Source: a virus
Direction: 5' to 3' (one strand)
IMG/VR virus record: IMGVR_UViG_3300032285_001359
Coordinates: 1-45,332 of that record
Length of the DNA: 45,332 bases
Both the position numbers and the translations under genes were made by a program. The notes under the pieces are model-generated. The model was not told the origin of the DNA and did no database searches. It saw only the letters and a list, made by a program, of their open reading frames with translations. Shown in pieces: positions 6,085-45,332 of this stretch (positions are counted from its first letter, which is position 1; every line of letters starts with the position of its first letter).

Positions 6085-6085
6085 T

Positions 6086-6964: not shown

Positions 6965-6970
6965 ATTATT

Positions 6971-13434: not shown

Positions 13435-15458
13435 TGGCAAAAGAACCGAAAGATCCAGCATTCCCGCACCCAACGCTAGAGGTTGGCGTTCCGCAGTATC
13501 CTACGCCGAACGTGCCAGATTTCTATACGAAATCTGGGCATATCATCCTTGTAGAGCGGATTAGCGTGGATAAAGGGAGCTACAACCCCCTCCCGCTGGA
13601 TGGAAGCATCACTTACACTGGAAAGGACGCAAACAAGTTTCCTGACGATCTCTATCTCGTTGCTGAACGCCCTACGGCAGACGGCTTATTCTGTTATCGC
13701 TTCTGGGCCAATGACCGCACACTTACATCTCAAGACCCTTGGAATTACGGCATAGACTACAGCGCAAACAACCCCAGCTATCCAATTTATAGCAGGCAAT
13801 ACATCACTCCTAGATATCAGTATGCACCTGCCTCCTTGGGGGATACTGACCCTGTGTTTGGGGGATCTGCTATAATTTCGCAACAGAAGATGGTAGAGCT
13901 TGGAGATGATGACCCGCTTCGCTCTCGTTATGTGCAAGTGCAGAGGATTTATGAAACGATCCCTGGCCCTATAATAACGGGGAAGAGAATAGATGCTCGT
14001 GGAGATATAGAGACAGTTCTTGTGCAGACAGTAGCGGCTGGAACAGATCCAGCTACTGATGGGTTGTTTATTACAGAAGCTAAAGTAGATCCTATAGATT
14101 CAGTTAAAGGAACCAAGACCACTGCAAGCGTTGCGAGCTATGCCGCGCTTACATCGTACGAATATAAAGGAGGATTGCTTGGGCTTACGCACGTTTTAGA
14201 TAATATTGTTAGCCCAGGCACCAATCCAGATTCACTTTCAACGACTGTTCTTGAATCTTCTGTAGAGCAGATTAGTAAAACCAAGGCAAGGAAACGCACA
14301 ATTTCTTCTGATGGGCCTACTTTATTGAGTGGAGCAGGAGAATCAAGAGGCTTGCTAGGAACAACCAAGATAGAACAATCTATTGTAAGTTATAATTCTG
14401 CTCCAGATAGTTTATCTTATAAGATTATTTCTTCTACTGTAGATCCAATAGATAAATACAAAAGCAAAAAAACCACAATTATATCTAATGGCCCTACTGC
14501 ACTTCAAGGAGGCAAACTCAATAATAGGGGTGAGTTAGAATTAATAATAGAGTCAATTATTAATTCAACAGATACAATTTCTGCCGACAATTACACTCTT
14601 GTTTCGTCAGAAATAGAGCCAATTGATTACGCAAAAAGCAAAAAAACTGATGTTGTAATACCAAATTACAACACCCTTAATAGCGGTTTATTTGATTTTA
14701 GTGCGCCTTCTTCTGGGGCAAAAGTTTATGTTGAAAATACGATTGTTGACCCTCTACATTATACAACTCCCACATTGGGATTAAATATTGTTGGATACAG
14801 CGAAAAAAGAATTACTCCGACAAAATTAGAAATAACAAAGCAAACTGTTGATAGTTTTCCAACATTAATTGGTAGTCAAATTGATAAAATAACTGGGACT
14901 CAACATTACGAAACTGAAAAAGAAATTGTTGGAATAGGCAGTCTAGCTTCAGCTACTCTAGGTGTAATTAATGAATATCTCCCAATTGATATTATTCATT
15001 CGCAAAGAGTAACAACTGATTATTCGGCTTTAATTGGATATCAATGGACTGAATATGAAACAGAATCTTATACAATTCCTTCAAGACTTTGGGTGTATAA
15101 TTCTAATTGGGGAACTGGATATTGGACGCTCAACAATATATATCAATATACGCCATCTCGCTCTTTGTATGTAAATGCAACAATCACATACACAATTGAA
15201 TCTACTCCCACAATAGACACTTGTTACAATATAATTACACAAACACTTATTACGGATTTTGGTATGTTTCAAGATGTTATTCATAATGTTATAGATTATA
15301 GATATCAAGGACAAGTTATTACAGCGCAAGCATCTACACCAAATGCTATGTCTCTTCCTATGACTATTGTTATTAAATCTTCATCCACAAGGATTACACA
15401 AATGGGTGGTCTTTATTTAAACAAAAAGGTGGAGATTCCTTTTTCTTTTTTATTTTAA
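13434..15458 (+). CDS. Tail structural protein with four internal repeats, 674 residues
   Basis: The N-terminal 175 residues are Pro/Tyr-rich and conserved-looking. Residues about 178-410 are four tandem units of about 58 residues, each ending in a version of S-x-V-x-P-I-D-x-x-K-S-K-K-T. The C-terminal 260 residues are beta-rich and Thr/Tyr/Ile-rich. The gene follows the ejection protein genes with a one-base overlap (taATGG), so it belongs to the virion block; a tail nozzle, hub or spike component is likely. The second half is much more A/T-rich than the first. No enzymatic site recognised. Confidence 0.6.
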   Translation: MAKEPKDPAFPHPTLEVGVPQYPTPNVPDFYTKSGHIILVERISVDKGSYNPLPLDGSITYTGKDANKFPDDLYLVAERPTADGLFCYRFWANDRTLTSQDPWNYGIDYSANNPSYPIYSRQYITPRYQYAPASLGDTDPVFGGSAIISQQKMVELGDDDPLRSRYVQVQRIYETIPGPIITGKRIDARGDIETVLVQTVAAGTDPATDGLFITEAKVDPIDSVKGTKTTASVASYAALTSYEYKGGLLGLTHVLDNIVSPGTNPDSLSTTVLESSVEQISKTKARKRTISSDGPTLLSGAGESRGLLGTTKIEQSIVSYNSAPDSLSYKIISSTVDPIDKYKSKKTTIISNGPTALQGGKLNNRGELELIIESIINSTDTISADNYTLVSSEIEPIDYAKSKKTDVVIPNYNTLNSGLFDFSAPSSGAKVYVENTIVDPLHYTTPTLGLNIVGYSEKRITPTKLEITKQTVDSFPTLIGSQIDKITGTQHYETEKEIVGIGSLASATLGVINEYLPIDIIHSQRVTTDYSALIGYQWTEYETESYTIPSRLWVYNSNWGTGYWTLNNIYQYTPSRSLYVNATITYTIESTPTIDTCYNIITQTLITDFGMFQDVIHNVIDYRYQGQVITAQASTPNAMSLPMTIVIKSSSTRITQMGGLYLNKKVEIPFSFLF

Positions 15459-15463
15459 TAATT

Positions 15464-15712
15464 ATGAATGAAAATTTAATAGATAAGATTAAAGAATTTG
15501 CTAATTCGCAAAATCAAGAATTTATTGTTCAAGCAGGACAGGGAATATCTGTGACTAAAAGTAAAAATAGTTATATTGTTTCTTTAAATACTTCTTCAAA
15601 TCAAAACACAAAAATGATAAATCCTGTTTTAGTAACAATTAATGTCTGTGTTGATAATGTTCCTCATTATTTAGATGTTTGGGCAAATGGCACGCCTTAT
15701 GTAATTTCTTAA
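15464..15712 (+). CDS. Small putative tail-associated protein, 82 residues
   Basis: It starts MNENLIDKIKEFANSQNQEF after aataattATG, five bases beyond the previous stop. Residues 22-40 (VQAGQGISVTKSKNSYIVS) resemble the short GxGIxVT...YxVS repeats seen in phage tail-fibre and capsid-decorating proteins. The C-terminal half is beta-rich. The gene is A/T-rich like its neighbours. A minor tail protein or fibre adaptor is plausible from context only. Confidence 0.5.
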   Translation: MNENLIDKIKEFANSQNQEFIVQAGQGISVTKSKNSYIVSLNTSSNQNTKMINPVLVTINVCVDNVPHYLDVWANGTPYVIS

Positions 15713-15715
15713 ATT

Positions 15716-16513
15716 ATGGATGTTTTTATTGGTTGCCCAAATGGATGCAATGAACCTAAAAATGATCCAACGCAATCGTGGGGATGTTGCTGTTTGTATA
15801 ATTCAAAATTATTTCAATCAATAGATGAAAATCCTCCAATTTTAAGTGCGGAAAATGATCTCCCAGATGAAGTAAAAGTTTATTATTATACATCAGATCA
15901 ACCAAATGATTGCCTTGCTTATACTACAGAGCCAACAATAGTTAGTAAAACCTATTCAACAAGTCCAGGTTACCCAGCTGCATGGGGGTATAATTTAAGT
16001 TTTATAAATAACATATATGGTCAATATCAACCAAACGACCCTTATCGTCTTTTTGAAAAAAGATGGAATGAGACAGGTGAGGTTTACGGGGGGCGTGGAT
16101 TTAACGGAGGATTATGCCCATACACCATCTTAACAGATTGGTGCGTAGGTAACAACGATCCTTCTTTTGGGCCTTCTTCTACAGTAGATATTAGAATCAC
16201 AGACAATTTTGATGATAAATATCTGGTTTCATTTGGTGGTGATTTTGTTGAAGTATCAAGACAATCATCATGTTATTGGGAAGGGGAATTTATTTTTAAT
16301 GATAATCAATGCCCAAATTTGAAAAAAAAGATTAAATTACAATGGGGCGGGGATTGGAACCCCTATGGATGGTCGGTGCAAACTCTCCGAGATAATAGTT
16401 ACGGATCAAAAGAAACAAGGGGAGCAAAAACAGGATTTCAAAATACACCAGTTGGAGAATATCTTGATCCATCTTCAGGATATACATCAGTTGTTAAAAA
16501 AATAGATAGTTAA
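15716..16513 (+). CDS. Cysteine-rich putative virion protein, 265 residues
   Basis: The product starts MDVFIGCPNGCNEPKNDPTQSW and has a cluster of Cys in its first 27 residues (GCPNGC and GCCCLY). It is rich in Tyr, Trp, Asn, Gly and Asp and looks beta-structured throughout, without a membrane segment. No family recognised. It lies between a small tail-type gene and a zinc-ribbon gene with gaps of zero to three bases, so it is probably cotranscribed with the tail genes. It could be a tail tip or adhesin protein; this is inference. A/T-rich coding sequence. Confidence 0.5.
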   Translation: MDVFIGCPNGCNEPKNDPTQSWGCCCLYNSKLFQSIDENPPILSAENDLPDEVKVYYYTSDQPNDCLAYTTEPTIVSKTYSTSPGYPAAWGYNLSFINNIYGQYQPNDPYRLFEKRWNETGEVYGGRGFNGGLCPYTILTDWCVGNNDPSFGPSSTVDIRITDNFDDKYLVSFGGDFVEVSRQSSCYWEGEFIFNDNQCPNLKKKIKLQWGGDWNPYGWSVQTLRDNSYGSKETRGAKTGFQNTPVGEYLDPSSGYTSVVKKIDS

Positions 16514-16902
16514 TGATTTGCCAATTTGCATATCGCCAAGGCAACACAGGCCCATTCCATTGCTCTTTAGGGAGGTTTGGTGGATCTCCTTATTTGGGAA
16601 ATTGTGAGAAATGCATAGAACAAGGGCTAAACAAAGATGAACCATCCCTAGCAGAGAAGGCTAAATCGTTAGCCGCATCTGTAAAAACATGGGTTGGATC
16701 TGGATTGCAAATAGCAACAGAGGATCAAGTAAATTACCGACTAGAAATCTGCAAGTCTTGCGAGTTCTGGAACGCCTCTGGATTTGCTAGAACTGGTTCT
16801 TGCAAGAAATGCGGATGCTCCACGCAAGCAAAGCTCCGTATGGCTACTTCCAAATGCCCCATTGACAAGTGGGGAGCCATTGCGCTAGAAAAACCGCAAT
16901 AG
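16513..16902 (+). CDS. Zinc-ribbon-like cysteine-rich protein, 129 residues
   Basis: The start overlaps the previous stop by one base (taATG). Cysteines fall in two groups: a loose set in the first 35 residues (CQFAY, HCSL, NCEKC) and a tight C-terminal set (ICKSC, then SCKKCGC, then KCPIDKW), which should bind zinc. The motif IC-x2-C...C-x2-CGC is shared with the protein at 29657-30319. Such small Cys-rich proteins are common in phage structural regions and their function is unknown. It precedes the second glycosyltransferase gene. Confidence 0.6.
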   Translation: MICQFAYRQGNTGPFHCSLGRFGGSPYLGNCEKCIEQGLNKDEPSLAEKAKSLAASVKTWVGSGLQIATEDQVNYRLEICKSCEFWNASGFARTGSCKKCGCSTQAKLRMATSKCPIDKWGAIALEKPQ

Positions 16903-16905
16903 AAA

Positions 16906-17883
16906 ATGATTGTAGCAATCTCTTATCATCAAGGCGATCAGCCGCTCATGGTTCGTTGGGCCAAGCGAGTAAAGCAACTAGGCCCTTATCTCAACCACGA
17001 GATCATTGTCTCTCCTTGCCACGGAGCCTCCACGCAAGACATTAAGCTTCCGCTAGAGAATTGCTTTCGCAAAGTTACGATTGTCCCATCGGGACATACG
17101 GAGCGAGGGTGGCCTGTGAGTTGCAATCGCGCTTTCCAAAACATCTGCTGGCACTCCATGCTCACTACTCGTCAGCCGTTTCTCTTTATGGAGCCTGACG
17201 CTGTTCCTCTTTGCGAAGGCTGGATTGACGCAATTGAAGCAGAGTATCGGGCTTGTGGAAGTCCGTTCATGGGAGACCTTGTTGATTTATCCAAGTCGGA
17301 CGTAAGTGGTATTGACCACATGAGCGGCATTGCCGTTTATGATTGGAACCTATCCATCACAGCACCTCGCCTCTTCAACTGTAACAATGGCAAGGAAGAG
17401 TTTGCTTGGGATATTTTTGCCGCCTCCGACATTCTTCCCAAGATGCACCGCACTAATCTCATCCAGCACGACTGGGATAGATACAGGAGAGGAGATGTAG
17501 ATCCTTCTGCTGTGCGTGAAGGCGCAGTCATTTATCACCCAGACAAGCAAGGTGTATTGTTTAACGATGGTCTTGCTGGCCCTTTGAATAGTGTGCAGGG
17601 AGAGCCTGCAACGGGTGCGCCTGTGAGCGTTTCCTCATTTAAACACGAAGGGTCAGCCTCTATTTCCAATGAAGAAAAACCGCAAATACAATTTGAAGAA
17701 GCCCCGACAGATCAACAAGCCATCGTCCTTGAGCGGTTCAATTCAGTCCTTGTCTCTGCAAGAAGCGACTCCAAACTTAAACGACAAGTCAAACAATCCC
17801 TTATCCAGCACGGCTGGATCAAAGCCCCCAAAAAAGGAAAGCGTACTAGAAAAAAAGTTTCGCCTCCTGTGGGGGACGCTTAA
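16906..17883 (+). CDS. Glycosyltransferase-like protein, GT-A fold, 325 residues
   Basis: Residues 1-105 follow the GT-A pattern: an N-terminal strand (MIVAISYHQGD), a helix, a second strand (HEIIVSP), then PFLFMEPDAVPL (91-102), whose EPD occupies the DxD position. Residues about 110-225 contain a conserved-looking DWDRY and an acidic/aromatic acceptor region. The C-terminal 80 residues are a Lys/Gln-rich tail that overlaps the next gene in another frame for 215 bases. The sugar donor and acceptor are unknown. It is the second of three glycosyltransferase-type genes and does not resemble the other two closely. Confidence 0.7.
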   Translation: MIVAISYHQGDQPLMVRWAKRVKQLGPYLNHEIIVSPCHGASTQDIKLPLENCFRKVTIVPSGHTERGWPVSCNRAFQNICWHSMLTTRQPFLFMEPDAVPLCEGWIDAIEAEYRACGSPFMGDLVDLSKSDVSGIDHMSGIAVYDWNLSITAPRLFNCNNGKEEFAWDIFAASDILPKMHRTNLIQHDWDRYRRGDVDPSAVREGAVIYHPDKQGVLFNDGLAGPLNSVQGEPATGAPVSVSSFKHEGSASISNEEKPQIQFEEAPTDQQAIVLERFNSVLVSARSDSKLKRQVKQSLIQHGWIKAPKKGKRTRKKVSPPVGDA

Positions 17884-18160
17884 CGGGCCAGAGCTAGTTC
17901 AAGAACATCGCTTTCATCCTGTCCGTAAATGGCGGTATGATTTTGCTCATCTAGAGTCCAAGGTGGCTGTAGAGCTACAAGGGGGCATCTGGAGTGGCGG
18001 CAGGCATGGTCGCGGCTATGGAATCGTTGGAGATTACGACAAGATGAATGAGTCCCAGTTCTGCGGATGGGTAGTGATTCAGTTGTCTGCCAAACAGATC
18101 ACGATGGAGAATGTAGAAAAGATTGCTGAATTAATTAAGAGCAGATCATTGACAAAATAG
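17669..18160 (+). CDS. PD-(D/E)XK-type nuclease (Vsr/DUF559-like)
   Basis: Residues 57-163 carry the signature of Vsr/DUF559-like nucleases: a helix (LEKKFRLLW), then RYDFAH with Asp91, KVAVELQGG with Glu102 and Gln104, and a downstream GRHGRGYG and GDYDK. These form the metal-binding core of the PD-(D/E)XK fold. The first 56 residues are low complexity and are encoded entirely inside the end of the preceding gene in the +1 frame. ATG 17669 is the only ATG before the core, so either the overlap is real or initiation uses a non-ATG codon. A role in DNA processing, repair or homing is possible. Confidence 0.75.
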   Translation: MKKNRKYNLKKPRQINKPSSLSGSIQSLSLQEATPNLNDKSNNPLSSTAGSKPPKKESVLEKKFRLLWGTLNGPELVQEHRFHPVRKWRYDFAHLESKVAVELQGGIWSGGRHGRGYGIVGDYDKMNESQFCGWVVIQLSAKQITMENVEKIAELIKSRSLTK

Positions 18161-18168
18161 ATCATTGA
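18143..18168 (+). repeat. Direct repeat AGATCATTGA x2
   Basis: AGATCATTGA occurs at 18143-18152 and 18159-18168, a 16-base period. It spans the stop codon of the nuclease gene and lies 15 bases before the HNH endonuclease start. It could be a small duplication made when the HNH gene entered, or a regulatory repeat for that gene. Confidence 0.5.
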
Positions 18169-18183
18169 TGCCATCTTGTAGGC

Positions 18184-18807
18184 ATGGAAAAGAAATACAA
18201 GCGCGGTGATGTGAGAGAAGATGGTATGGTGTTCCGTAACTACACAGGTCGAGGAACTGAATGGTGGGTAACGCCAGAGGATCTTGCCGCCATGCGCGAG
18301 AGAAACAAGGTTGAGCGCAAACAGTATTACAAGAAAAATAAAAATGCAGTTGCAGAGTGCAATAAAAAATGGAGCGATAAAAACCCAGGCAGAAAAGCTC
18401 AACTTGCTAAAGAGTGGAGGCAGAAGAACAAGGAGTATGTCAATGCTGTTGTTAGAGAGTGGCAGAAAAATAATTCAGAGAAAGTTAAAGAAATGCAACG
18501 CAAAAGACTTGAAAGAGATCCAGATGGTTTTCGTTCAATGAAAAGAATGCACAGAGCAAAACGCAGAGCAATTTTAGAGGAGAGACTTCACCCAGATCAT
18601 AATTTTGAAATAGAGAAAACTTTAGCAGATCAATGCAAGCGTCTCTACAATAGGTTTGGAGTAAAATTTGAAATAGACCATATTGTTCCTTTAGATAAAG
18701 GAGGATGGAATCACCACTTAAATCTTCATGTTATTCCTATGGTTTGGAATAGGAGGAAGCATACAAAGGATACATTTATTTTGCCAGATTGTTGGAGGGA
18801 GAGATAA
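18184..18807 (+). CDS. HNH homing endonuclease, intact
   Basis: This 207-residue protein has an N-terminal KRGDVREDGMVFR segment. A long basic helical region with repeated K-x-W/KNP motifs (about 45-130) probably binds DNA. The C-terminal HNH core holds the EIDHIVPLDKGG motif (163-174), Asn180 in HHLNLHVIP, and NRRKH (189-193). It nicks or cuts DNA to spread its own gene. It sits between the nuclease gene and the capsid gene, next to a short direct repeat, and is a paralogue of the broken copy at 4721-5356. Start ATG 18184 without Shine-Dalgarno. Confidence 0.92.
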   Translation: MEKKYKRGDVREDGMVFRNYTGRGTEWWVTPEDLAAMRERNKVERKQYYKKNKNAVAECNKKWSDKNPGRKAQLAKEWRQKNKEYVNAVVREWQKNNSEKVKEMQRKRLERDPDGFRSMKRMHRAKRRAILEERLHPDHNFEIEKTLADQCKRLYNRFGVKFEIDHIVPLDKGGWNHHLNLHVIPMVWNRRKHTKDTFILPDCWRER

Positions 18808-18815
18808 TTTTCCCG

Positions 18816-18843
18816 TTGACAGATTAGTTAGTTGTATTGTAAT
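18816..18843 (+). promoter_or_regulatory. Candidate sigma70-type promoter for the capsid gene
   Basis: TTGACA (18816-18821), a 16-base spacer and TGTAAT (18838-18843) form a good sigma70-like promoter. It lies immediately after the HNH gene and about 145 bases before the capsid start, so it would give the capsid its own transcript with a long leader. Confidence 0.55.
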
Positions 18844-18988
18844 TGCTAGATCAGCGTAACCCCTTCGGGGGTCGGGTGTCGCGTACCAATTAAAATTAGG
18901 CGTTACCTCTTCCTTGCTTCGCCGACTAGGAACCAAGACAGGAACTTACATTAAGTAGGCTCCAATTAACCTAACAATATTTATAACT
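18844..18988 (+). promoter_or_regulatory. Capsid mRNA leader with UUCG hairpin
   Basis: The 145 bases between the promoter candidate and the capsid ATG contain ACCCC-TTCG-GGGGT (18859-18872), a 5-bp stem capped by the very stable C(UUCG)G tetraloop. A GGCG/CGCC pairing is possible further on (about 18899-18923). No U-tract follows, so it is not an intrinsic terminator. It may stabilise the abundant capsid mRNA or control its translation. The start codon follows an A/T-rich tract without Shine-Dalgarno. Confidence 0.55.
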
Positions 18989-20233
18989 ATGTCTAGCACA
19001 ATCTCTTGTTCCACAGTGAACGATATTTTTGAGCGCGAAACGAATAGATTTAACGTCGACATCTACGAGCGTTACTCGGTTGACGGCCCTTGGGGTCGTC
19101 TCGTGCGTGTTGGCAAGTTCCCCCTCGGAATGGGTACGACTCTGACTGAAGTCACTGTCGAGCGCGTTCTCTCTGGTAACTTTGAAAACACTTGGTCGAA
19201 TGTCTCCACCTCCTCTGGACTTGGTAGCCCCAACAATGTTGCGGGTTGCAATCCTACGCCTAACAGCCTTGCGTTTGGTCAGACCCTTCGCACTTGGCAG
19301 TTGCAGACCCAGAGCTATCAGACTCCTTGCATCTGCTTGGACGATCTGAAGACTGCGTTCCAGATTGAGGCACAGGTTGGCAAGACTGTCGATCAGCTTA
19401 CCCAGCTGACCAAGACTGTTCTTGATAACCGCCGCCGTTCGGAGTTCCTCCGTATCGCTGGCAAGCTCGTCGCTGGTGATGTGAGCCAGACTGTCTATCA
19501 GTCTGCAACCATCAACGGAACGACTGTCCCCAACGCTCTGTATAACAGCGCGACTGGCAATGCGATCCCCGCCCCCACCGCCAAGCTCTCGCAGGATCTC
19601 CTTGATGTTCTGCGTGTTCAGCTTATCCGTGATGGTGCTGGTCACAATGCCCTCGGTAAGGAGAACGGCGTTCCTGTGCTTGGTCTGATTACCTCGCCCG
19701 AAACGAGCCGCGATCTGCTCCGCAACAACGCTGACCTGCGTCAGGATATCCGCTATGCCACCCCTAGTGAGCTTATCGCTCCTCTTGGTGTCGAGCGTTC
19801 CTTCGCTGGCTTCTACCACATGATTGATCTGGAGCTTCCCCGCTTCACGTTCAGCGGCAACAACTGGCAACAGGTTTATCCCTACATCCAGTCTGCCACC
19901 TCTAACGGCTACACTTGGGAGGTTAACCCCGCTTACAATGTCGCCCCCTACGAGGTTTCGTACATCTTCCACCCCGATGTGTACGAGGAGAGCGTTCAGC
20001 AGGTTGGCCCGAACATCCCTGGTGCGCCGTTTGATGACTATCCGTACTACTACAGCGGACAGTTCTTCTGGCTCAACATCCGTGATGCCGTGAACAACCC
20101 GCTCGGTAAGATCGGTCGCTGGCTGGCAATCTTCCAGTCTGGTAGCCGCCCGATTGCTCCTTATCTTGGTCGCGCTGTGATCCACAAGCGTTGCCCCTAT
20201 GATTTGAGCTTCGCGGGATGCTCTTACTCTTAA
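18989..20233 (+). CDS. Major capsid protein
   Basis: This 414-residue protein has the length and composition of a tailed-phage major capsid protein, including the aromatic C-terminal segment YSGQFFWLNIRDAVNNP and an ELIAPLGVERS-type strand. It would form the head shell. The gene has its own promoter candidate, a structured leader and a strong terminator (20256-20288), as expected for the most abundant virion protein. Coding sequence is distinctly G+C-richer than the flanking genes, with many C-ending codons, suggesting optimisation or a different origin. The portal (30316) and scaffold candidate (35702) are far away. The leader lacks Shine-Dalgarno. The HK97-type fold is inferred, not demonstrated. 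Confidence 0.82.
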   Translation: MSSTISCSTVNDIFERETNRFNVDIYERYSVDGPWGRLVRVGKFPLGMGTTLTEVTVERVLSGNFENTWSNVSTSSGLGSPNNVAGCNPTPNSLAFGQTLRTWQLQTQSYQTPCICLDDLKTAFQIEAQVGKTVDQLTQLTKTVLDNRRRSEFLRIAGKLVAGDVSQTVYQSATINGTTVPNALYNSATGNAIPAPTAKLSQDLLDVLRVQLIRDGAGHNALGKENGVPVLGLITSPETSRDLLRNNADLRQDIRYATPSELIAPLGVERSFAGFYHMIDLELPRFTFSGNNWQQVYPYIQSATSNGYTWEVNPAYNVAPYEVSYIFHPDVYEESVQQVGPNIPGAPFDDYPYYYSGQFFWLNIRDAVNNPLGKIGRWLAIFQSGSRPIAPYLGRAVIHKRCPYDLSFAGCSYS

Positions 20234-20255
20234 TCGAGTAGTCTAACTCAAAAGA

Positions 20256-20288
20256 AAGCCCCTCTGGAGAAATCTGGAGGGGCTTTTC
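20256..20288 (+). terminator. Rho-independent terminator after the capsid gene
   Basis: AAGCCCCTC (20256-20264) pairs perfectly with GAGGGGCTT (20277-20285), a 9-bp G+C-rich stem with a 12-base loop. TTTT (20284-20287) runs out of the 3' arm. It lies 23 bases after the capsid stop codon and would end the capsid transcript. Confidence 0.88.
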
Positions 20289-20290
20289 TA

Positions 20291-20327
20291 TTGACTAGAT
20301 TGCGTTTATTATATTACAAATAATTTT
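20291..20327 (+). promoter_or_regulatory. Candidate promoter for the tail-fibre block
   Basis: TTGACT (20291-20296) follows the capsid terminator directly, and an A/T-rich tract (TTATTATATTACAAATAATTTT) leads to the ATG at 20328. The -10 element is ambiguous because spacing to the best match (TATATT-like, near 20310) is short. A promoter here is expected from the terminator-gene arrangement. Confidence 0.35.
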
Positions 20328-20675
20328 ATGTCCGCAGGCATTTTCAATCTTACTGATAGCTGTGCCATTGAGCAGGGAAGTGATTTTTCGTTTAGCTTTA
20401 TCTACAAGGATGTGAATGGGAATCCTGTTAATCTTACTTCTGCTACAATAACTGGTGAGATTAAGAAAGATTGGAACACATCATCATTGGCTTCTTTTAC
20501 AATTACAAAACATAATCCAGCTACAGATGGGTATGTTGGAATTAGCCTTGCGGCATCATCTTCTGAATCTATACCGCCAGATCGCTATAAATACGATATC
20601 CGTATTTCTCTGAATGGAGTGAATCATATTATCAAGGGTGTTTGCGATGTTGTGGAGTCAGTCACATTTGCATGA
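20328..20675 (+). CDS. Small tail/baseplate protein with Ig-like fold, 115 residues
   Basis: The product starts MSAGIFNLTDSCAIEQGSDF and is all-beta by pattern. It includes the YKDVNGNPVNLTSATITGEIK arrangement typical of the N-terminal domain of BppU-like baseplate proteins and other phage Ig-like adaptor domains. It is the first gene of the fibre block and overlaps the collagen-like fibre gene in an ATGA. It probably anchors a fibre to the tail. No Shine-Dalgarno. Confidence 0.6.
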   Translation: MSAGIFNLTDSCAIEQGSDFSFSFIYKDVNGNPVNLTSATITGEIKKDWNTSSLASFTITKHNPATDGYVGISLAASSSESIPPDRYKYDIRISLNGVNHIIKGVCDVVESVTFA

Positions 20676-21436
20676 ATGTATCTATTACATCTCCTGCTCC
20701 TTCTAATTTAGTAGATGTAAATATATCTACTCAATCAAATATTGTTGATATAACATCACCAAATCCAGCAAACATCATTGAGGTAACCCCACCTAATGGG
20801 GGATCTGTCGTTGAGGTTTATGCTGGTATTGCTGGCCCACAAGGAGAACAAGGCCCACAAGGAGAACAAGGCCCACAAGGAGAACAAGGGGATAAAGGAG
20901 ATACTGGCCCACAAGGGCCAAAGGGCGACCCGGGATCTGATGCAAACGTCACAGCGGCTAATATTGAATCTGCCTTGGGATACACTCCCATCGGTGACGC
21001 CCCGTCTGATGGTAGCCAATACGCCCGTCAGAATGCGGGATGGCAAGCGATCACGACGGGAAATCCCTTCGATCAGTCGCTGAATACGACGGATGATGTT
21101 ACTTTTAATTCTTTATCCGTACTCAATCAATCGTCTTTTGGCGACATATCGGTGAATGCCATCATTGCATACGATGAGATTTATTGGGCTGGTGCTGGAT
21201 CTGGTGGTAGTCAAGGTGCAGGGCAACTTCGTTATGACGGTTCTGCATCATTTGCAAATGGAGCGGCATCCATCGATTCCGTAGGTTCGGCATCCTTCTC
21301 ATCCCTGACCGTCGGCGGCAATTCTCTTGGCTCTGCGGCTTATCAGGCATCTACGGACTTTGATGCGGCTGGAGCCGCTTCCACCGCCCTTGCCACCGCC
21401 ACGACCCGCGCCATCGCTTTTTCAATCGCACTATGA
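20672..21436 (+). CDS. Tail fibre protein with collagen-like Gly-X-Y repeats
   Basis: Start ATG 20672 overlaps the previous TGA (ATGA). Residues 1-48 contain two similar Asn/Ile/Val-rich segments. Collagen-like triplets follow (GPQGEQ three times, then [16 protein letters not shown], about residues 52-88) and would form a trimeric rod. The rest is beta-rich with ESALGYTP (a common fibre motif) and Ala/Ser repeats. It is a host-recognition fibre or its shaft. Its end overlaps the next gene by four bases. Confidence 0.8.
20834..20887 (+). repeat. Three perfect 18-bp tandem repeats
   Basis: GGCCCACAAGGAGAACAA is repeated three times without a mismatch and encodes the GPQGEQ collagen triplets. 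Exact identity suggests recent copy-number change, which would alter fibre length. Confidence 0.92.
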
Positions 21437-22872
21437 AGCAACTCGCCTCTAACTACTCCATCAGCGGATCTGCCGTCACCCTTACGGGGGTGAACGTCCC
21501 TCTGTCCCAGATCCTGCTCATCTCGGATGCGTCCACAGGGAATGTCCTCTACTCAATGGCAGGCCCGTCGGCTTCCAGCTACACGCAGGCGGCTAATTCG
21601 GTTATCACGCTGGCGACGGCCCCCGGTGCCTCGGATAAGCTGACGATTTATTATGATGACGGGGCTACGGTCACCAACGGGCCGACGAGCGTTTCGGTCA
21701 GCAATTTCCCCGAGACCCAGCCCGTTTCGGGGACGGTTACGGTCAGTAATCCGCAGACCTCGGTTTCGGTTTCTAATTTCCCAGCAACGCAAGCGGTGTC
21801 AGGAACGGTCACTGCCAACACAGGCCTTTCCCAGCCGCTCACCGACACGCAACTTCGTGCAACCGCCGTTCCTGTATCGGTGGCTTCGTCTGTTGAAGTG
21901 GAGGTTAAAAACGACACTGGCAACCCACTTCCTGTATCTGGAACCGTATCGCTGGCTGGAGGCAATGCCACCGCCGTCAAGGTGGACGGGTCAGCGGTTA
22001 CCCAGCCAGTCTCGGCCTCCGCGCTTCCCCTGCCTACGGGTGCGGCGACAGCGGCAAATCAATCCACCCAGATCACGGCCCTCGGTCACCTGACAGACGG
22101 GACGCAAACGACCAAGATCGTCAACGGGGCGAACACGCTTGCCATCGACTCGCTCGGCGCGGCAACGGTGAATAATGCGGCTAGTCAGGTTTTTAATTAT
22201 ACTGGAACTGGCGTTGTTGCAATAAACACGGTTTTAATTGGGCCTATTGATTGTTCTGCAATTAAAGAAATATCGGTACAGTGTAGTTCGATCGGAACTG
22301 GATTGTATTATCAAGGCCAGTATTCAAATGATGCAACAAACTGGTATACAATGGCATATCTGAATGGTTCAAACATCAGTCTAAACACGATCAACTCTAC
22401 TGGATTAGTAACATTTAATACAGGATCAGCCCGATATTTTAGGGTAATTGCATCGGCGGCTCAATCTGCTGGAACAACAACTTTAATTGTCTATGGATCA
22501 CAGCAAAGTTCCCCCAAACTTTACACGTCAATCGTAGGAAATGTTTCTGTTGGAATTAACTCTGGCGGCAACACCATCGGTGCAGTGCTTCCTCCCACCA
22601 TCGCCACCCTGACCCAGACCACAGGAACAGCGGCAACGGGAACCTCGACACAGGCACTTGCGGCATCTTCGGCTTCCAAGCTCCTAGCCATTCAGAACAC
22701 GGCAACGAGCGGAACCCTCTACATCGGATTCGGGTCTGCTGCCACGGTCTGCACCTCGGCATCGTTTGCCCTCACGGCAGGCCAAGGCTACGAGTTCCCC
22801 GTGATTCCGACACAGGCTTGCTGGTTGCTCGGTTCCACCTCTGGCGTGACCTACTCCATCCTCTCTGCATAA
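21433..22872 (+). CDS. Repetitive tail fibre / decoration protein, 479 residues
   Basis: The middle of this Ser/Thr/Ala/Val-rich protein (about residues 82-200) holds repeats of the SVSNFPxTQxVSGTV type, a motif seen in many phage and prophage virion proteins. The C-terminal domain (about 250-479) is beta-rich with a typical SARYFRVIAS segment and ends in GVTYSILSA. It starts in an ATGA overlap with the collagen-like fibre. A structural role in the tail fibre or as a shell decoration is likely. The 5' third is G+C-rich, whereas 22180-22550 is A/T-rich, so the gene looks mosaic. Confidence 0.65.
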   Translation: MKQLASNYSISGSAVTLTGVNVPLSQILLISDASTGNVLYSMAGPSASSYTQAANSVITLATAPGASDKLTIYYDDGATVTNGPTSVSVSNFPETQPVSGTVTVSNPQTSVSVSNFPATQAVSGTVTANTGLSQPLTDTQLRATAVPVSVASSVEVEVKNDTGNPLPVSGTVSLAGGNATAVKVDGSAVTQPVSASALPLPTGAATAANQSTQITALGHLTDGTQTTKIVNGANTLAIDSLGAATVNNAASQVFNYTGTGVVAINTVLIGPIDCSAIKEISVQCSSIGTGLYYQGQYSNDATNWYTMAYLNGSNISLNTINSTGLVTFNTGSARYFRVIASAAQSAGTTTLIVYGSQQSSPKLYTSIVGNVSVGINSGGNTIGAVLPPTIATLTQTTGTAATGTSTQALAASSASKLLAIQNTATSGTLYIGFGSAATVCTSASFALTAGQGYEFPVIPTQACWLLGSTSGVTYSILSA

Positions 22873-37010: not shown

Positions 37011-38702
37011 ATGAAGCTCCAAACCTACGGGCTGGACTTGAGTGCATTTCCAAAGGCAACGCAACTAGAGGTTGAGTTGCTGATGGTGAAAGATCCCGAT
37101 CCAAGTCGTTTCAGCGGCTTGAGTCGGGGTCAGCATATCAAGCACGTTCTCACCATGCTTTGGCCTGACGTAATGTCTCGCTGGAATGATTGGAACGAGC
37201 TTGCGTTGTGGGCATGGACGAACTACGACGAAATTGGAGTCACGGGATGCGCGGCGGCAGGAAAGACCTTTACGTTCACTTTGCTATCGCTTGTGGAGTT
37301 TCTAGCTTGTCCTATGGGGACTCGTATAGCCCTAACCTCTACCACAGTCCCTTCCCTGCGCGGGCGTATCTGGGCAGAGATGATGAAGTTCGTGCGCCCT
37401 GTGCATCCGTTGTTTGGGCTAAATGTGGTGGACTCGCAGACGAAGATCCAGTTCCAGAAGGGAGATGACCGCTCTGCAATCATAGCCCTTGCAGTCGATA
37501 GCGGAGCGATTGAGCAAGCTGTGGGTAAGTTGCAGGGTGTTCACATCCCCCGTGTGGTGATCGTTGCTGACGAAGCGGCGCAGACTAACCCAGCTATCTT
37601 CTCTGCCAGGGCCAACCTTGCCGTTGGTACGGACTTCTATCGCTTTATTGCTATCGCCAACGCATCATCGCAGTTTGACCCTCATGGGTTATTCTGCGAA
37701 CCCAAGATGGGATGGGGATCTATCCAAGATGATGATGAGTTTTGGGAAACCAAGACGGGAGTGTGCGTGAGGTTTGATGGGCTGAAGTCACCCAATGTGA
37801 AAGCGGGACGCTTAATTTATCCATACCTTTTTGGGCAGGACAACATTGATACGATTGCCAAGAATTTTGGTATTGGAAGTCTTGAATGGAACAGTTATGT
37901 GAGGGGGATGTGGTCGCGCTCTGGAGCGAGAAACACGATCCTCGACCAAGCCATGATCAACGAGGGCCGCGCCCGTGAGAGCGTCACTTGGGCTGGAGGA
38001 GGCATCAAGCAGATAGCCGCTCTTGACCCTGCATTCACGACTGATGGCGATGATTGTATCCTGCGCTTTGCCAAGGTGGGCAAGGCTCTTGACGGCGATC
38101 TTATCATCGAATGCGGCGACATCGTGCGACTCACGCTCACGGAAAGCGAGAACTACCCACTCTTCTACCAAGTGGCAGACCAGACCATCGCAGAGCTAAC
38201 GAGGCGCAACATTCAGCCAGAGGACTTTGCTATTGACGCGACAGGCGCAGGAGCAGGCATAGCCGACATCATCTCACAACGCTGGAAGACAGGCTTTGTA
38301 CGAGTGAGCTTTGGAGGAGGTGCTACGGAGCATCCTATCTCCATTGAAGATGATCGTCCCGCAAAACAAGTCTACGCCAATCGCGTGAGTCAACTCTGGG
38401 GACAGATCCGCACGATCATCATGGCTGGAAGGATGCGTGGGCTAGATGACCAGACTAGCCGAGAGCTATGCGCTCGTATCTACACTCTCAAGAACGAGAA
38501 GATGCTCCTTGAGAGCAAGAAGGATTTGAAGAAGCGCACGAAAGGAAATTCGCCTGACAGAGCGGATGCCTTGGCGTTGCTTGTAGAAGTGATGGTGACG
38601 AACTGGGGGCTTGGGAACAGCGTGGGGAGCCTTGCAGATTCAGATTCTGACTGGGATTCTTTTGTGCTTGCAAATCAGTTGGAGTCTACCTACGACTCGT
38701 AG
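37011..38702 (+). CDS. terL: Terminase large subunit (ATPase and nuclease)
   Basis: The ATPase domain has Walker A GCAAAGKT (79-86) and Walker B VVIVADEA (182-189). The C-terminal RNase H-like nuclease has acidic residues in ALDPAFTTDGDD (Asp339), AIDATGAG (Asp409) and SPDRADALALL (Asp516 or Asp519). It cuts concatemeric DNA and pumps it through the portal. At 563 residues it has the usual length. The gap before it (36902-37010) holds a hairpin and no gene. No Shine-Dalgarno (CCAATTTATG). Confidence 0.95.
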   Translation: MKLQTYGLDLSAFPKATQLEVELLMVKDPDPSRFSGLSRGQHIKHVLTMLWPDVMSRWNDWNELALWAWTNYDEIGVTGCAAAGKTFTFTLLSLVEFLACPMGTRIALTSTTVPSLRGRIWAEMMKFVRPVHPLFGLNVVDSQTKIQFQKGDDRSAIIALAVDSGAIEQAVGKLQGVHIPRVVIVADEAAQTNPAIFSARANLAVGTDFYRFIAIANASSQFDPHGLFCEPKMGWGSIQDDDEFWETKTGVCVRFDGLKSPNVKAGRLIYPYLFGQDNIDTIAKNFGIGSLEWNSYVRGMWSRSGARNTILDQAMINEGRARESVTWAGGGIKQIAALDPAFTTDGDDCILRFAKVGKALDGDLIIECGDIVRLTLTESENYPLFYQVADQTIAELTRRNIQPEDFAIDATGAGAGIADIISQRWKTGFVRVSFGGGATEHPISIEDDRPAKQVYANRVSQLWGQIRTIIMAGRMRGLDDQTSRELCARIYTLKNEKMLLESKKDLKKRTKGNSPDRADALALLVEVMVTNWGLGNSVGSLADSDSDWDSFVLANQLESTYDS

Positions 38703-38740
38703 CTGAACCAGAGGCAATGGCCTCGCAACCCACATAAAAA

Positions 38741-38938
38741 ATGAGAAGACCCCGACCATTCGGACAAACGCATTCATGTGAATGCGGCAAGGACACGGAG
38801 ATTGTAGTGTATCCCTACATCCCAGCCATAACCTCGCATCAATACGAGGACAATGAGGAAGCAGAGGGAGGCTACTGCGATCCAGAGGAATGCCCAGAAT
38901 GCGGATGCGGAATTGACTACGAGGACTACGCAGAATGA
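38741..38938 (+). CDS. Small cysteine-rich protein, 65 residues
   Basis: The product MRRPRPFGQTHSCECGKDTE... has four or five Cys in zinc-ribbon-like spacing (SCECGK near 12-17, then YCDPEECPECGCG near 45-57) and an acidic C-terminal end. It overlaps the Mom-like gene by four bases (ATGA), so the two are probably translated together and could be functionally linked. No family recognised. Confidence 0.6.
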   Translation: MRRPRPFGQTHSCECGKDTEIVVYPYIPAITSHQYEDNEEAEGGYCDPEECPECGCGIDYEDYAE

Positions 38939-39609
38939 ACTGGTCTGTGCATCAGATCACATTTCGAGATGCAGAGCCTTGGCTTTTGAAAAAGCATTAC
39001 GCCAAAAGGATTCCTCCAGTATCTTATGCCTTTGGCGCATTCTTTGATAAATCCTTGATCGGAATAGTTACATACGGAACTCCCGTTTCATCATCTCTTC
39101 GTGAGGGGGTTTGTGGAAAGGAGTATGCTGATTATGTGATTGAGCTTAATCGCCTGTGTTGTGAAAGCACTAAAAACCTAGCTGGGTTTTTAATATCAAA
39201 TTCATTAAAACTAATACCTCGACCAAAGATCGTTGTTAGTTTTGCTGATACTGCACAAGGCCATGTTGGATATGTTTATCAAGCAACCAACTTTGTTTAC
39301 ACGGGGTTGAGCGCAAAGAGAACAGATTGGAAAATCAAAGGCGAAGAGCATCTTCATGGAGCTACTGTAGCAGACAAATTCAGAGGAGTTGAAAACATGG
39401 CGCAAGCTCTCCGAGATAAATATGGAGATGACTTTTATTTAGAGGATAGGCCAAGAAAGCACAGATATATTTATTTTATTGGAACAAAAAAAGAAAAGAA
39501 AAAGATGAAGCAATCTCTTAAATATCAGATTGAAGAATACCCGAAGGGGGAATCGCAAAGATATAATGCTAGCGCAAAAATAAACACACAAATGCTACTA
39601 ATCAATTAA
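38935..39609 (+). CDS. mom: Mom-like DNA modification protein
   Basis: This 224-residue protein shows the layout of the Mom family: an N-terminal HYAKRIPPVSYAFGAFF (21-37), then IGIVTYGTP (42-50), YVIELNRLC (67-75), VVSFADTAQGHVGYVYQATN (100-119) and a downstream YTGLSAKRTDW. Mom of phage Mu is a GNAT-like enzyme that converts adenine to N6-methylcarbamoyl-adenine (shown for Mu) and blocks host restriction. The C-terminal 60 residues are Lys-rich. The assignment rests on motif recall; the substrate group in this phage is inference. Mu's transcription activator com was not recognised, although the adjacent Cys-rich 65-residue gene (38741) is Com-like in size. Confidence 0.85.
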   Translation: MNWSVHQITFRDAEPWLLKKHYAKRIPPVSYAFGAFFDKSLIGIVTYGTPVSSSLREGVCGKEYADYVIELNRLCCESTKNLAGFLISNSLKLIPRPKIVVSFADTAQGHVGYVYQATNFVYTGLSAKRTDWKIKGEEHLHGATVADKFRGVENMAQALRDKYGDDFYLEDRPRKHRYIYFIGTKKEKKKMKQSLKYQIEEYPKGESQRYNASAKINTQMLLIN

Positions 39610-39613
39610 CAAT

Positions 39614-40303
39614 ATGCAATCAGTAAAACTAGACCGACACAAAGAGCATCAGAAGTATCATCTATCCGATGGAACGAAAGTACCTGGGGGATCTACGATC
39701 AGCAAGATCGGAGACGATGCAGGGGCATTGATCCATTGGGCTTGGAAATTGGGATGCGAGGGGAAGAACTACCGAGACGTGAGTAAGGAGGCTTGCGACA
39801 TTGGAACGCTGGCTCACTTCTACATTGAATGCTTCCTCAATAACCAAGTTGCCGACCTATCCGACTACACACAGGAGGAGCGGGATAAGGCTCTTGTGTG
39901 CTACCATAAGTTTCTTGAGTGGTGGGAGACGCAGGATCTTGAAGTGGTGGCTACGGAGATTCAGCTTGTGAACGAAGTTTACAAGTACGGGGGAACCATT
40001 GATCTGATCGCCAAACGCAAGAATGGAGATCATGTGCTGATGGATTTCAAGACCAGCAAGAAGATTAGCGAGAGCTATTGGAGGCAGGCCGCAGGCTATG
40101 CTTGGCTATGGGAGGCCAACAACAAGCAAGCTCCCATCACCGATCACGCCATTGTGAGGATCGGCAAGGAAGAAGAAGGGGACTTTGAGGTGGTCTGGAA
40201 GGAAGACCTAGAAAAAGAATGGATCGTCTTCCAGAAGCAAGTGGATCTCTACTGGGCAATGAAGGCCGCTAAGCCAGAGTCAAAGAGGAAAAAGAAGAAG
40301 TGA
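39614..40303 (+). CDS. PD-(D/E)XK nuclease, RecB/Cas4-like
   Basis: The core motif set is visible: GTLAHFYIECFL (about 55-66, helix with His), then VATEIQLVNEVYKYGGTIDLIA (about 115-136, with catalytic Asp) and VLMDFKTSK (about 142-150, the D-x-K motif). YWRQAAGYAWLW follows, as in RecB-type nucleases. This 229-residue enzyme would trim or process DNA in recombination with ERF, or in replication. The gene follows the Mom-like gene and overlaps the next by four bases. Basic tail (KRKKKK). Confidence 0.88.
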   Translation: MQSVKLDRHKEHQKYHLSDGTKVPGGSTISKIGDDAGALIHWAWKLGCEGKNYRDVSKEACDIGTLAHFYIECFLNNQVADLSDYTQEERDKALVCYHKFLEWWETQDLEVVATEIQLVNEVYKYGGTIDLIAKRKNGDHVLMDFKTSKKISESYWRQAAGYAWLWEANNKQAPITDHAIVRIGKEEEGDFEVVWKEDLEKEWIVFQKQVDLYWAMKAAKPESKRKKKK

Positions 40304-41034
40304 AAAAACTCTCCGTATTACACTCTGGGCATATAGGCGACATCATTGCCTTTCTGCCACTCTATGAGGATTTGGGAGCAACTAAATTATACATCACTGA
40401 TAATAAATATATCCCCAATATGCTCCCGATGAATGGATTTAAATATGCAACACTTGAGCCTTTGTTGAAAAATATTGGAGTTGACGTTGAGTTTGTCAAA
40501 GACCCAGATTCTGTTGACATTAATATTGATACAACCAAATGGCAAGTGTATGGGCGTTATTATAGTCCAGACATGAATCTATTGGAGCAACAGGCTTTTT
40601 ATTTGGGCATAATAAAAAGAAACGAAAGATTAACAATTAATGATAAATGGATTGATGTAGATCCAGATCCAGCAACAAAAGGAAGAGTTGTATTTAACAG
40701 AACATCTAGATACAGAAATTACAATTTCTCATGGAAAGATGTGCGTAAATATTTTGGTGATAGGGCATTATTTATTGGAACAGATGCCGAATATAAACTT
40801 TTCAAAAAAGAAGTTGGCACAATTGAACGATATAAAGTGGACGATTGCTTGCAAATTGCTAGGGCAATAGCAGGCTCAGATTACTTTGTTGGAAATCAAT
40901 CAAGCTCGTTTTGGATTGCGGCGGCTATGCGGCATCCGCTTCTACAAGAAGTGTGTTTGTCTTGTCCTAATTCAATTATTAACAACGAAAATGCAACCTA
41001 TTATACAGGCGGCAAATTAAACATAAACATATGA
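40300..41034 (+). CDS. Glycosyltransferase, GT9-like GT-B fold, 244 residues
   Basis: GTG 40300 overlaps the nuclease stop. The first residues (MKKLSVLHSGHIGDIIAFLP) carry the GHIGD loop of heptosyltransferase-like (GT9) enzymes, and the C-terminal half has the GNQSSSFWIAAAMR segment where GT9 enzymes bind the nucleotide-sugar. The gene is A/T-rich compared with its neighbours, a sign of recent transfer. It is the third glycosyltransferase and the only one with a GT-B pattern. Acceptor unknown. Confidence 0.7.
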   Translation: MKKLSVLHSGHIGDIIAFLPLYEDLGATKLYITDNKYIPNMLPMNGFKYATLEPLLKNIGVDVEFVKDPDSVDINIDTTKWQVYGRYYSPDMNLLEQQAFYLGIIKRNERLTINDKWIDVDPDPATKGRVVFNRTSRYRNYNFSWKDVRKYFGDRALFIGTDAEYKLFKKEVGTIERYKVDDCLQIARAIAGSDYFVGNQSSSFWIAAAMRHPLLQEVCLSCPNSIINNENATYYTGGKLNINI

Positions 41035-42323
41035 GTCTTCCAGCCAATATTGACGCAGAGAAGGCATTCCTATCCTCTGCCCTCCAGAATCCATCCATCC
41101 TCGACATTCATGCCGATCACCTAAAGCCTGCTCTCTTCCATCATCCTGCTCATAAAAACCTGTTTAAGGGGCTTCTAGCCCTATGGAAAGAGGGCAAGTC
41201 GGTAGACTTGATTACCATCAGCGAGTGGTTGGAGGTCAATAATCTCATGGATGATTGCGGTGGCCCGTCAGAAGTCGCGGCGATATACTCTCATGTCAGC
41301 ACAAGCCACAACCATGAGGAGTATTTCAACATCATTCGTCATTATCACACGGCGCGTTTGGCTATTGCTGGCGCGGAGCGTATCATTGATTCAGCCCGTA
41401 ATCCTGTAGTCAACGGGGAGCTATCCGAGACTGTGCAGAAAGCCCTAGTAGCGATTGCGTCAGAAGCGGAGAGCGGAACCAAGATTGAGTCTATTGGGGA
41501 GGCTACTACCCGCCGTCTCAACGAGTATGAGGAGATGGTGAAGAACAAGGGAAAGCTCATGGGACTCACCTATGGCTTCCCCTCGCTAGACGAACACACG
41601 GGAGGCATGAGGCCTGGGCAACTGATCGTCATTGGCGCACCAACCAAGGGCGGCAAGACCGCTCTGGCTCTCAACATAGCCCAACGAACCGCCGATGCAG
41701 GGAACAACGTAGGAGTCTTCTCGCTTGAGATGAGTAGTGGGGAGATGGTGGATAGGCTTGTGGCCTCCCTCACGGGCGTGGACATATCCGTATTGTCCAA
41801 GAATCCAAGCAAGGAAGAGATGGGTAAGATCGCTTTCGGAGTGGGACAGGTGGGCAAGTTGCCGATCTGGATTCGGGATGAAAGCTCTATCAATCCGCTT
41901 CAAATCATGGCGGCGGCTCGACGCATGGTGGCGACACATGGCGTGAAGATGATTGTCTTTGACTACATCCAGCTTGCCATGCCTACCAATGCCAAGGACT
42001 CCCGTGAGAGGCAGGTGGCAGAAGTGAGTCGTTGCCTCAAGCTAGTAGCCAAGGAGCTAGGCATCACAATCATTGCCCTCTGTCAGCTTAACCGCAATGG
42101 AACAGCCCGTGAGTCTGATGCCATCCAACACGACTGCGATATGTTCTTGGTCATCCGCTACCAAGAGGCAGAGGAGGATAGCAAGAAAAAACAAGATTCT
42201 GACGAGTGCGGATACTGGCTTGACATTCGTCTCGCTAGGAATTGTAGTAGAACATCTTTCCCGCTATCCTTCCAGCCGCAATACCTGCGGTTTGAAGAAC
42301 GGGAGATAAAACAACACCAATGA
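41031..42323 (+). CDS. dnaB: DnaB-type replicative helicase
   Basis: The 430-residue protein has the DnaB N-terminal domain (about 1-110, NIDAEKAFLSSAL) and the RecA-like ATPase domain: Walker A GAPTKGGKT (202-210), the SLEMSSGEM motif (231-239), Walker B MIVFDYIQL (307-315), a LCQLNR segment and an RNCSRT finger-like region near the C-terminus. It unwinds DNA at the replication fork. No primase or polymerase gene was recognised, so it probably works with host enzymes. It overlaps the SSB-like gene (ATGA). Confidence 0.95.
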   Translation: MSLPANIDAEKAFLSSALQNPSILDIHADHLKPALFHHPAHKNLFKGLLALWKEGKSVDLITISEWLEVNNLMDDCGGPSEVAAIYSHVSTSHNHEEYFNIIRHYHTARLAIAGAERIIDSARNPVVNGELSETVQKALVAIASEAESGTKIESIGEATTRRLNEYEEMVKNKGKLMGLTYGFPSLDEHTGGMRPGQLIVIGAPTKGGKTALALNIAQRTADAGNNVGVFSLEMSSGEMVDRLVASLTGVDISVLSKNPSKEEMGKIAFGVGQVGKLPIWIRDESSINPLQIMAAARRMVATHGVKMIVFDYIQLAMPTNAKDSRERQVAEVSRCLKLVAKELGITIIALCQLNRNGTARESDAIQHDCDMFLVIRYQEAEEDSKKKQDSDECGYWLDIRLARNCSRTSFPLSFQPQYLRFEEREIKQHQ

Positions 42324-42999: not shown

Positions 43000-43269
43000 A
43001 TGAAAACAACACTCCGATCAGCCGCGCAACTAGTAGTCACCTACGATGCGCTCTTCAAGGTAGCAATCAAACACGCCGAACATCACGGCCTCTCCGAGAT
43101 CAAGATCAGCACCGCCCGTGCGCGATCCCTTTACAATGATCTTGTCGTACTGGATAAGGCATTGAGCATTCCAGAGCCTCGCAAGCCTGGGTATTTCAAT
43201 CGCCTTGACGCGATCTTCTCCGAGCAAGAGCGAGTCTTGGATCAAGCCCTCACCAAAATCATCGGATGA
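43000..43269 (+). CDS. Hypothetical helical protein, 89 residues
   Basis: ATG 43000 is preferred over 42985 because it has the ACAAAAATG leader seen elsewhere. The product (MKTTLRSAAQLVVTYDALFK...) is helical, with an IKISTARARSLYNDL segment and a RKPGYFNRLDAIF turn. No family recognised. It starts the small-gene run that continues through the genome join. Its end overlaps the next gene in ATGA. Confidence 0.55.
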   Translation: MKTTLRSAAQLVVTYDALFKVAIKHAEHHGLSEIKISTARARSLYNDLVVLDKALSIPEPRKPGYFNRLDAIFSEQERVLDQALTKIIG

Positions 43270-44282: not shown

Positions 44283-45220
44283 AGCAACTATTTGAGTTAG
44301 TTGCCGCAATGGACGCTCTCTACCAAAAAACAAAAATGAACCCACAGACACCAGACAACGAGGTCGCACTTTCAGAATCCGTATGGGGAGCATATTGGCC
44401 CGATTGGGAATCAAGGGCGAAAGCCATGAAAATGGCTTGTGAAAAATTAGAGGAAGAGATCGCAAGGTTGCGTGGACTACTAAAAGACCACGCTACATTT
44501 CTGCGTAAGAACGGATTCGACAGACAGGCAGACGATCTTATGCGGTTCGCCCCCGCGCCAGAAGAACCCGTGAGCGAATGCCAAGATTGCGGAGTTCCGC
44601 TAGCAACCGCTGAACAAATTAACAAAAGATGCTCGCCTTGTATGATGGCAAGAACTGAACTATTGGGGGCAACGATGGACGAGTGGTATGGAGGATTTTC
44701 AAAGATCGAAAGCACGGAACCAGTTATCCAAGAAAATCGAATAACTGAACCCGTGAGCGAATACAAAGAATGCGAGAAGTGCGGAGGCCGTGGGGTTGTC
44801 TATGGATTCCTTCAAGGTTCATACGGGCCGTCAGCTTGCCATGAATGCTCTGGTTGGTCAGAAAAAACTACCCAAGTTTCTGACAAGGAACCCGCTTTCG
44901 AATGGCGAGAGCTTGGCCCTGACGAGGTGATCTGCGAGGGGGATGAGGTTCAGCCAAAACACCATGTTGGAAGTGAATGGGTAAAGGCATGGTCATTTGA
45001 GTTAGGGGTAAAAGCTGGACACTTCAAAGCCATGCGATACCGCACCCGCCGCCCGTTGCCAAAGCAGGAGGAGATGCCGCTGGAGGGTGACATCGAAGAC
45101 CTAGAAGAGATGGCAAACTCCGAAACCCTGCCAACATCCATAGTATCAATAGCTGCAAAGACAGCATGCGCCCTCCGCTACCTCCGCGACGAGATCCATA
45201 AGCTAAAGGAGGCACAATGA
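44279..45220 (+). CDS. Hypothetical zinc-finger-bearing protein, 313 residues
   Basis: The product (MKQLFELVAAMDALYQKTKM...) has a helical N-terminus with a coiled coil (CEKLEEEIARLRGLLKDH). Two zinc-binding segments follow: SECQDCGVPLA then KRCSPCM (about 98-121), and ECEKCGGRGVVYG then ACHECSGW (about 163-190), a DnaJ-type CxxCxGxG motif. The C-terminal third is acidic with helices. A role in nucleic acid or protein binding is possible; no family recognised. It ends by overlapping the small gene at the join (AATGAG). Confidence 0.6.
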   Translation: MKQLFELVAAMDALYQKTKMNPQTPDNEVALSESVWGAYWPDWESRAKAMKMACEKLEEEIARLRGLLKDHATFLRKNGFDRQADDLMRFAPAPEEPVSECQDCGVPLATAEQINKRCSPCMMARTELLGATMDEWYGGFSKIESTEPVIQENRITEPVSEYKECEKCGGRGVVYGFLQGSYGPSACHECSGWSEKTTQVSDKEPAFEWRELGPDEVICEGDEVQPKHHVGSEWVKAWSFELGVKAGHFKAMRYRTRRPLPKQEEMPLEGDIEDLEEMANSETLPTSIVSIAAKTACALRYLRDEIHKLKEAQ

Positions 45221-45332
45221 GCGAAAGAAGCGAAAGAAGTCATCTCTCTCCACGCATGAAGGAGATGCAGAGGCGCATTGATTCGGCCTCGCCTAACAGA
45301 ACTGGAGCCGTCTCTAAATCTTATCAAGAAGG
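45210..45332. repeat. Terminal direct repeat, right copy
   Basis: Identical to bases 1-123, so the contig can be closed into a circle of 45,209 bp. Confidence 0.97.
45217..45332 (+). CDS. Truncated right-end copy of the small basic gene
   Basis: Same reading frame as the gene at 8-175, cut by the end of the window after codon 38. The Shine-Dalgarno AGGAGG is complete here (aaaggaggcacaATG). Joining the ends restores the 55-residue gene. It overlaps the stop of the 44279 gene. Confidence 0.8.
   Translation, partial: MSERSERSHLSPRMKEMQRRIDSASPNRTGAVSKSYQE

Follow-up and report, generated by a model that had tools for sequence, protein, structure and literature searches.

A Mom-family DNA-modification gene is exchangeable cargo beside the terminase gene in a clade of uncultured phages

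Organization of the locus

The locus described here belongs to IMG/VR viral record IMGVR_UViG_3300032285_001359, analyzed over its whole length of 45,332 nt (hereafter the window), and all of its features lie on the plus strand. The left anchor is terL (37011..38702), encoding a terminase large subunit of 563 aa that is conserved in 50 viral-contig loci and was recognized by eye from a Walker-A-like GCAAAGKT, VADEAAQ and a nuclease-like AALDPAFTTDGDD, with no match in Pfam, PHROG or PDB searches. Adjoining the first gene after terL is a hairpin leader, GAGGC-AATG-GCCTC, followed by an A-rich tail (38705..38740). Two genes follow, as the initial annotation had proposed: a 65-aa product with six cysteines (38741..38938) and mom, of 224 aa (38935..39609), which overlap in ATGA at 38935-38938. 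The stretch that we call slot 1 (38941..39610), delimited by breaks in DNA homology to five relatives, holds mom as its cargo. Its right anchor is a RecB/Cas4-like exonuclease gene (39614..40303; PHROG 298 exonuclease, 4.9e-29), and beyond this lies slot 2 (40300..41034), which is likewise delimited by homology breaks, and then the gene for a DnaB-like replicative helicase that forms the right anchor of slot 2 (41031..42323; Pfam DnaB_C, 1.4e-53).

The window carries an exact direct terminal repeat of 123 nt (1-123 and 45210-45332); this probably marks the contig as a complete genome, although a circular assembly could by itself give rise to such a repeat. Most structural genes (5371-22872), together with the terminase (37011-38702), are without a Pfam or PHROG match, and the clade is therefore a poorly described phage group. 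A TerL profile found no relative among 84,980 species genomes, and searches of cultured phages with TerL and with the zinc-ribbon protein gave neither a relative nor a pointer to the host. The best matches of DnaB in cultured phages reach 31-32% identity over nearly the whole protein and indicate no host. The label of virulent podovirus given in the initial annotation is a tentative one. Elsewhere in the genome, window 1067-1924 (minus strand) encodes an ArdC-like anti-restriction protein with a zincin-like metallopeptidase domain (PF08401, 1.7e-34; PF18818, 2.4e-40), a second anti-restriction gene of this genome.

The initial annotation assigned the 224-aa product to the Mom family from short sequence segments, which are present, and profile searches bear the assignment out. 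Pfam PF25680 (Mom) is matched at 136.6 bits (E=1.2e-39; curated cut-off 27.1 bits) over profile positions 2-202 of 202, PHROG 1384 is matched at E=1e-55, and the Mu Mom structure 8bv8 is found in a sequence search at E 1.1e-11. An AlphaFold model (pLDDT 84.7) retrieves the same structure as the best PDB match in a fold search (E 1.7e-11, TM 0.68). By sequence and predicted structure, the product is a full-length Mom-family protein with a GNAT-like fold. Mom relatives, all below 60% identity, occur in 270 cultured-phage records, which makes Mom an established gene among phages of diverse hosts. Compared with its nearest relatives, mom shows a dN/dS of 0.02-0.03 at dS 0.42-0.44, while the zinc-ribbon gene shows 0.08-0.22 against its nearer relatives; given these low ratios, both reading frames behave as genes. 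Both cargo genes are AT-rich relative to their surroundings: the GC content is 0.385 in mom and 0.359 in the slot-2 gene, but 0.529, 0.495 and 0.522 in the flanking genes (0.529 and 0.495 for those beside mom).

Slot contents are exchanged among close relatives

Relatives were gathered in IMG/VR by anchoring on terL and the exonuclease gene, and all of them are metagenomic contigs. Slot contents were mapped in about 60 loci, with genes placed by tblastn and cargo enzymes confirmed by Pfam. The order does not vary: terL, the leader hairpin, in some loci HNH or small genes, the zinc-ribbon gene where present, slot 1, the exonuclease gene, slot 2, dnaB and ssb. Slot 1 contains mom in the window, L002, L133, L160/L161 and L148; a C5 methyltransferase of family A in L128, L131, L140, L165 and L171, or of family B in L096, L106 and L153; and an N4/N6 methyltransferase in L086. 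Among the 32 rows of a TerL tree the slot is occupied in 14, every time by a DNA-modification gene, and the commonest state (18/32) is a slot without any modification gene. On this tree the slot contents require 13 changes, against an average of 13.3 for shuffled labels, and are thus no more clustered than random labels.

Pairs of close relatives with different contents are found repeatedly. The left flank is 97% identical between L148, with mom, and L145, with an empty slot; it is 98% identical between L096 (C5 methyltransferase) and L103 (empty), and 93% identical between L086 (N4/N6 methyltransferase) and L133 (mom). The homology of the window to L096, L103, L086, L131 and L106 is lost at 38940/38941, immediately behind ATGAAC, and returns at 39606-39614, on the exonuclease ATG or shortly ahead of it. 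A trace of swapping is seen in L171, where 16 nt of the exonuclease start persist before the methyltransferase. Chimeric assembly of metagenomic contigs is possible, but it is countered by the recurrence of the same junctions in several samples (e.g., L103-L105 and L126; L139, L140 and L164). We therefore find that mom is one exchangeable cargo of slot 1, with start codons as boundaries. We note that a 36-aa remnant of a C5-methyltransferase N-terminus also lies right ahead of mom in L009 (4823-5001), an unrelated phage; this suggests that there, too, mom took the place of a methyltransferase.

Similarly to slot 1, homology around slot 2 breaks at 40303-40306 and at about 41023-41032. In the window slot 2 holds an AT-rich orphan gene of 244 aa with no family match and no relative in the collections searched; its N-terminus, GHIGDIIAFLP, looks glycosyltransferase-like by eye only. 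L133 has two different mom genes, one per slot (8310-8981 and 9699-10328), and its second Mom, in slot 2, is about 45% identical to the window Mom.

The zinc-ribbon gene end and the translation start of the cargo

Alignment of 17 homologues of the 65-aa product reveals invariant C13, C15, C51 and C54, in a pattern of C-x(1-4)-C and C-x2-C, and by this pattern the product is a zinc-ribbon protein with four cysteines. The last codons of its gene read GAGGACTACGCAGAATGA before mom, before a C5 methyltransferase gene, before an N4/N6 methyltransferase gene and before an empty slot. They include a Shine-Dalgarno-like GAGGA (38921-38925) that is separated by a 9-nt spacer from the mom ATG (38935-38937; putative element 38921..38937) and that probably serves as a ribosome-binding site. 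Folding of the mRNA at the mom start shows no excess (z 0.49), and the Mu control is likewise without signal. The overlap varies among relatives: in L002, 4 nt separate the zinc-ribbon stop from mom with no overlap, and in L148 mom stands without any zinc-ribbon gene.

Upstream, the hairpin leader is identical at 36/36 positions in L133 and L086, against a terL DNA identity of 85-86%. Sixteen loci retain it; 97% of their stem cells are paired, and two pairs carry compensatory changes on both sides. The hairpin is possibly a leader or translation-start element of the clade. The hairpin and then CAACCCACATAAAAA stand directly before the start codon, and a similar element precedes the ORF at 43000.

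The zinc-ribbon protein could instead be an Ogr/Delta-like general regulator that acts on translation or late transcription and boosts the expression of any modification gene placed behind it. The gene is under purifying selection, seven of the 17 family members give weak Ogr_Delta zinc-finger matches (best 3.2e-4), and it co-occurs with occupied slots: zinc-ribbon and cargo presence are associated (12/4 vs 2/15, p=3.6e-4, with counts that ignore the tree). This association proves nothing about function, since it reflects just two independent changes on the tree. Moreover, the gene also stands before empty slots (L103, L135, L141, L152), it is absent beside mom in L148 and beside the C5 methyltransferase gene in L171, and a fold search with its model gave no significant match to solved structures. 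On balance we regard a general regulator as unlikely, and favor the zinc-ribbon gene as the border of an exchangeable slot.

Conserved residues and the likely chemistry of Mom

Mu Mom converts adenine to N6-methylcarbamoyl adenine. In an 87-row Mom alignment, residues H21, Y22, R25, E70, N72, R73, S102, D105, Y115, H141, R177 and Y178 are present in 86-87 of 87 rows and are kept in the window protein, as is the family-invariant N81. Accordingly, the invariant pattern of the family (HY..R, ELNR, SxxD, Y, H, RY) is present. The sole exception among the residues checked is the equivalent of Mu S124, which is Gly84 in the window protein. This position is Ser in 79/87 rows and Gly in the window and seven other rows, which represent six distinct contigs with one contig present twice. 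S124 is a feature of the Mu enzyme and lies outside the criteria of the family model. The title of PDB 8bv8 calls S124A inactive, and the Ala is seen in the chain sequence RNSEARAIS. Gly at this position possibly represents an alternative form of the acyl-CoA pyrophosphate loop.

The replacement of S124 by Gly84 means that the activity and product of this Mom are not guaranteed. It fits a reading in which the protein is a diverged GNAT that acts on a protein or small molecule and no longer modifies DNA, as does the plain annotation of several phage relatives as acetyltransferase. However, the whole Mom family model is matched, all other invariant residues checked are retained, and the slot is otherwise occupied only by DNA methyltransferases, so that we consider a loss of DNA modification quite improbable. 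The strong purifying selection on mom (dN/dS 0.02-0.03) argues that the gene works, and a DNA-modifying Mom with methylcarbamoyl chemistry is, with Gly84 taken into account, likely.

Comparison with the com-mom operon of phage Mu

In phage Mu, translation of mom is activated by Com, a CCCC zinc-finger protein of 62 aa (PMC6483171). As in Mu, the window carries a Mom, by sequence and by fold, and a gene for a small zinc-binding protein upstream that overlaps mom, and the initial annotation had proposed a com-mom-like cassette. The 65-aa product does share with Com the character of a small protein with a four-Cys zinc site. However, the overlap with mom is about 80 nt in Mu but 4 nt here, and the two Cys pairs are separated by 35 residues in the window protein compared with 16 in Mu Com. 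While Mu Com itself is recovered by PF10122 as a positive control (2.7e-9), the window protein gives no PF10122 hit; PF10122 (Zn_ribbon_Com) is also absent among the matches listed (25/31 families) for the 17 homologues. An hhalign comparison of the zinc-ribbon family with Com yields a probability of 2.7%.

The genomic context is decisive. The zinc-ribbon gene of L083, 100% identical to that of the window, shares the same ATGA with a C5-cytosine methyltransferase gene; that of L086, at 94% identity, overlaps the N4/N6 methyltransferase gene, and the 88% identical copies in L087-L090 have no modification gene behind them. The upstream gene is therefore common to methyltransferase genes as well, contrary to Mu. 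Zinc-ribbon relatives in other genomes are found downstream of the SSB gene, where no modification gene accompanies them. Conversely, only 5/77 mom loci, four of them from this clade, are preceded by a short ORF whose product has two Cys pairs, and an upstream gene of the zinc-ribbon kind is missing in the other 72. Judged on its sequence and these contexts, the 65-aa zinc-ribbon protein is neither Com nor dedicated to Mom. Consequently, a Mu-like cassette in which it binds mom mRNA and specifically switches on Mom translation, for all its Com-like gene order, size and zinc site, is highly improbable.

Discussion

In sum, the comparisons show a Mom-family gene as cargo of an exchangeable slot and a zinc-ribbon gene that fails to match Com, and we hold it likely that the full picture, with translation of the cargo by coupling, is correct. 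In this picture, Mom would most likely modify adenines of the phage's own DNA, and this modification would keep host restriction enzymes from cutting. On its left the slot borders the conserved zinc-ribbon gene or else terL, and on its right the conserved exonuclease gene; in relatives it houses a C5-cytosine or an N4/N6 methyltransferase gene, or stays empty. The end of the zinc-ribbon gene would supply both GAGGA and the ATG of the cargo, so that an incoming gene may inherit a ribosome-binding site and be translated by coupling. Recombination would drive the swapping, possibly helped by neighboring HNH endonucleases; several relatives have HNH-type genes, called by eye and with no Pfam hit, in the stretch that separates terL from the slot. 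Against the picture weigh Gly84 in Mom, the preponderance of slots that hold no modification gene, the gap before mom in L002 and the missing zinc-ribbon gene in L148.

Related arrangements are known from other phages. In lactococcal 936-type phages, orphan methyltransferases, shown to protect against restriction enzymes, and HNH endonucleases are inserted in the terminase module (PMC4190342). Both there and here, modification and HNH endonuclease genes are inserted beside a terminase gene. The 936-type hotspot lies between the small and large terminase genes and holds methyltransferases only, whereas the slot described here lies between terL and the exonuclease gene, exchanges Mom for methyltransferases and has its boundaries on start codons. 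At locus 0.3 of T7 and T3, ocr and a SAM hydrolase, which are unrelated anti-restriction genes, alternate in related phages. The slot resembles locus 0.3 in placing unrelated anti-restriction genes at one locus of related phages; the T7 and T3 genes encode inhibitors or cofactor destroyers, while those of the slot encode DNA-modifying enzymes. We know of no conserved leader gene at locus 0.3.

A broader proposal joins two claims: that the leader gene, with its built-in ribosome-binding site and start codon, is a standardized expression socket that has repeatedly taken Mom, C5 and N4/N6 enzymes within one uncultured clade, and that the Gly84 Mom makes a different adenine adduct. We put this combination forward as a speculative one that is rather doubtful as a whole.

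These results carry a warning that a small Cys-rich gene preceding mom should not be taken for com. Near-identical phages that differ in carrying mom, a cytosine methyltransferase, an adenine or N4-cytosine methyltransferase, or an empty slot constitute natural near-isogenic pairs, and such pairs let one ask which restriction systems each modification defeats.
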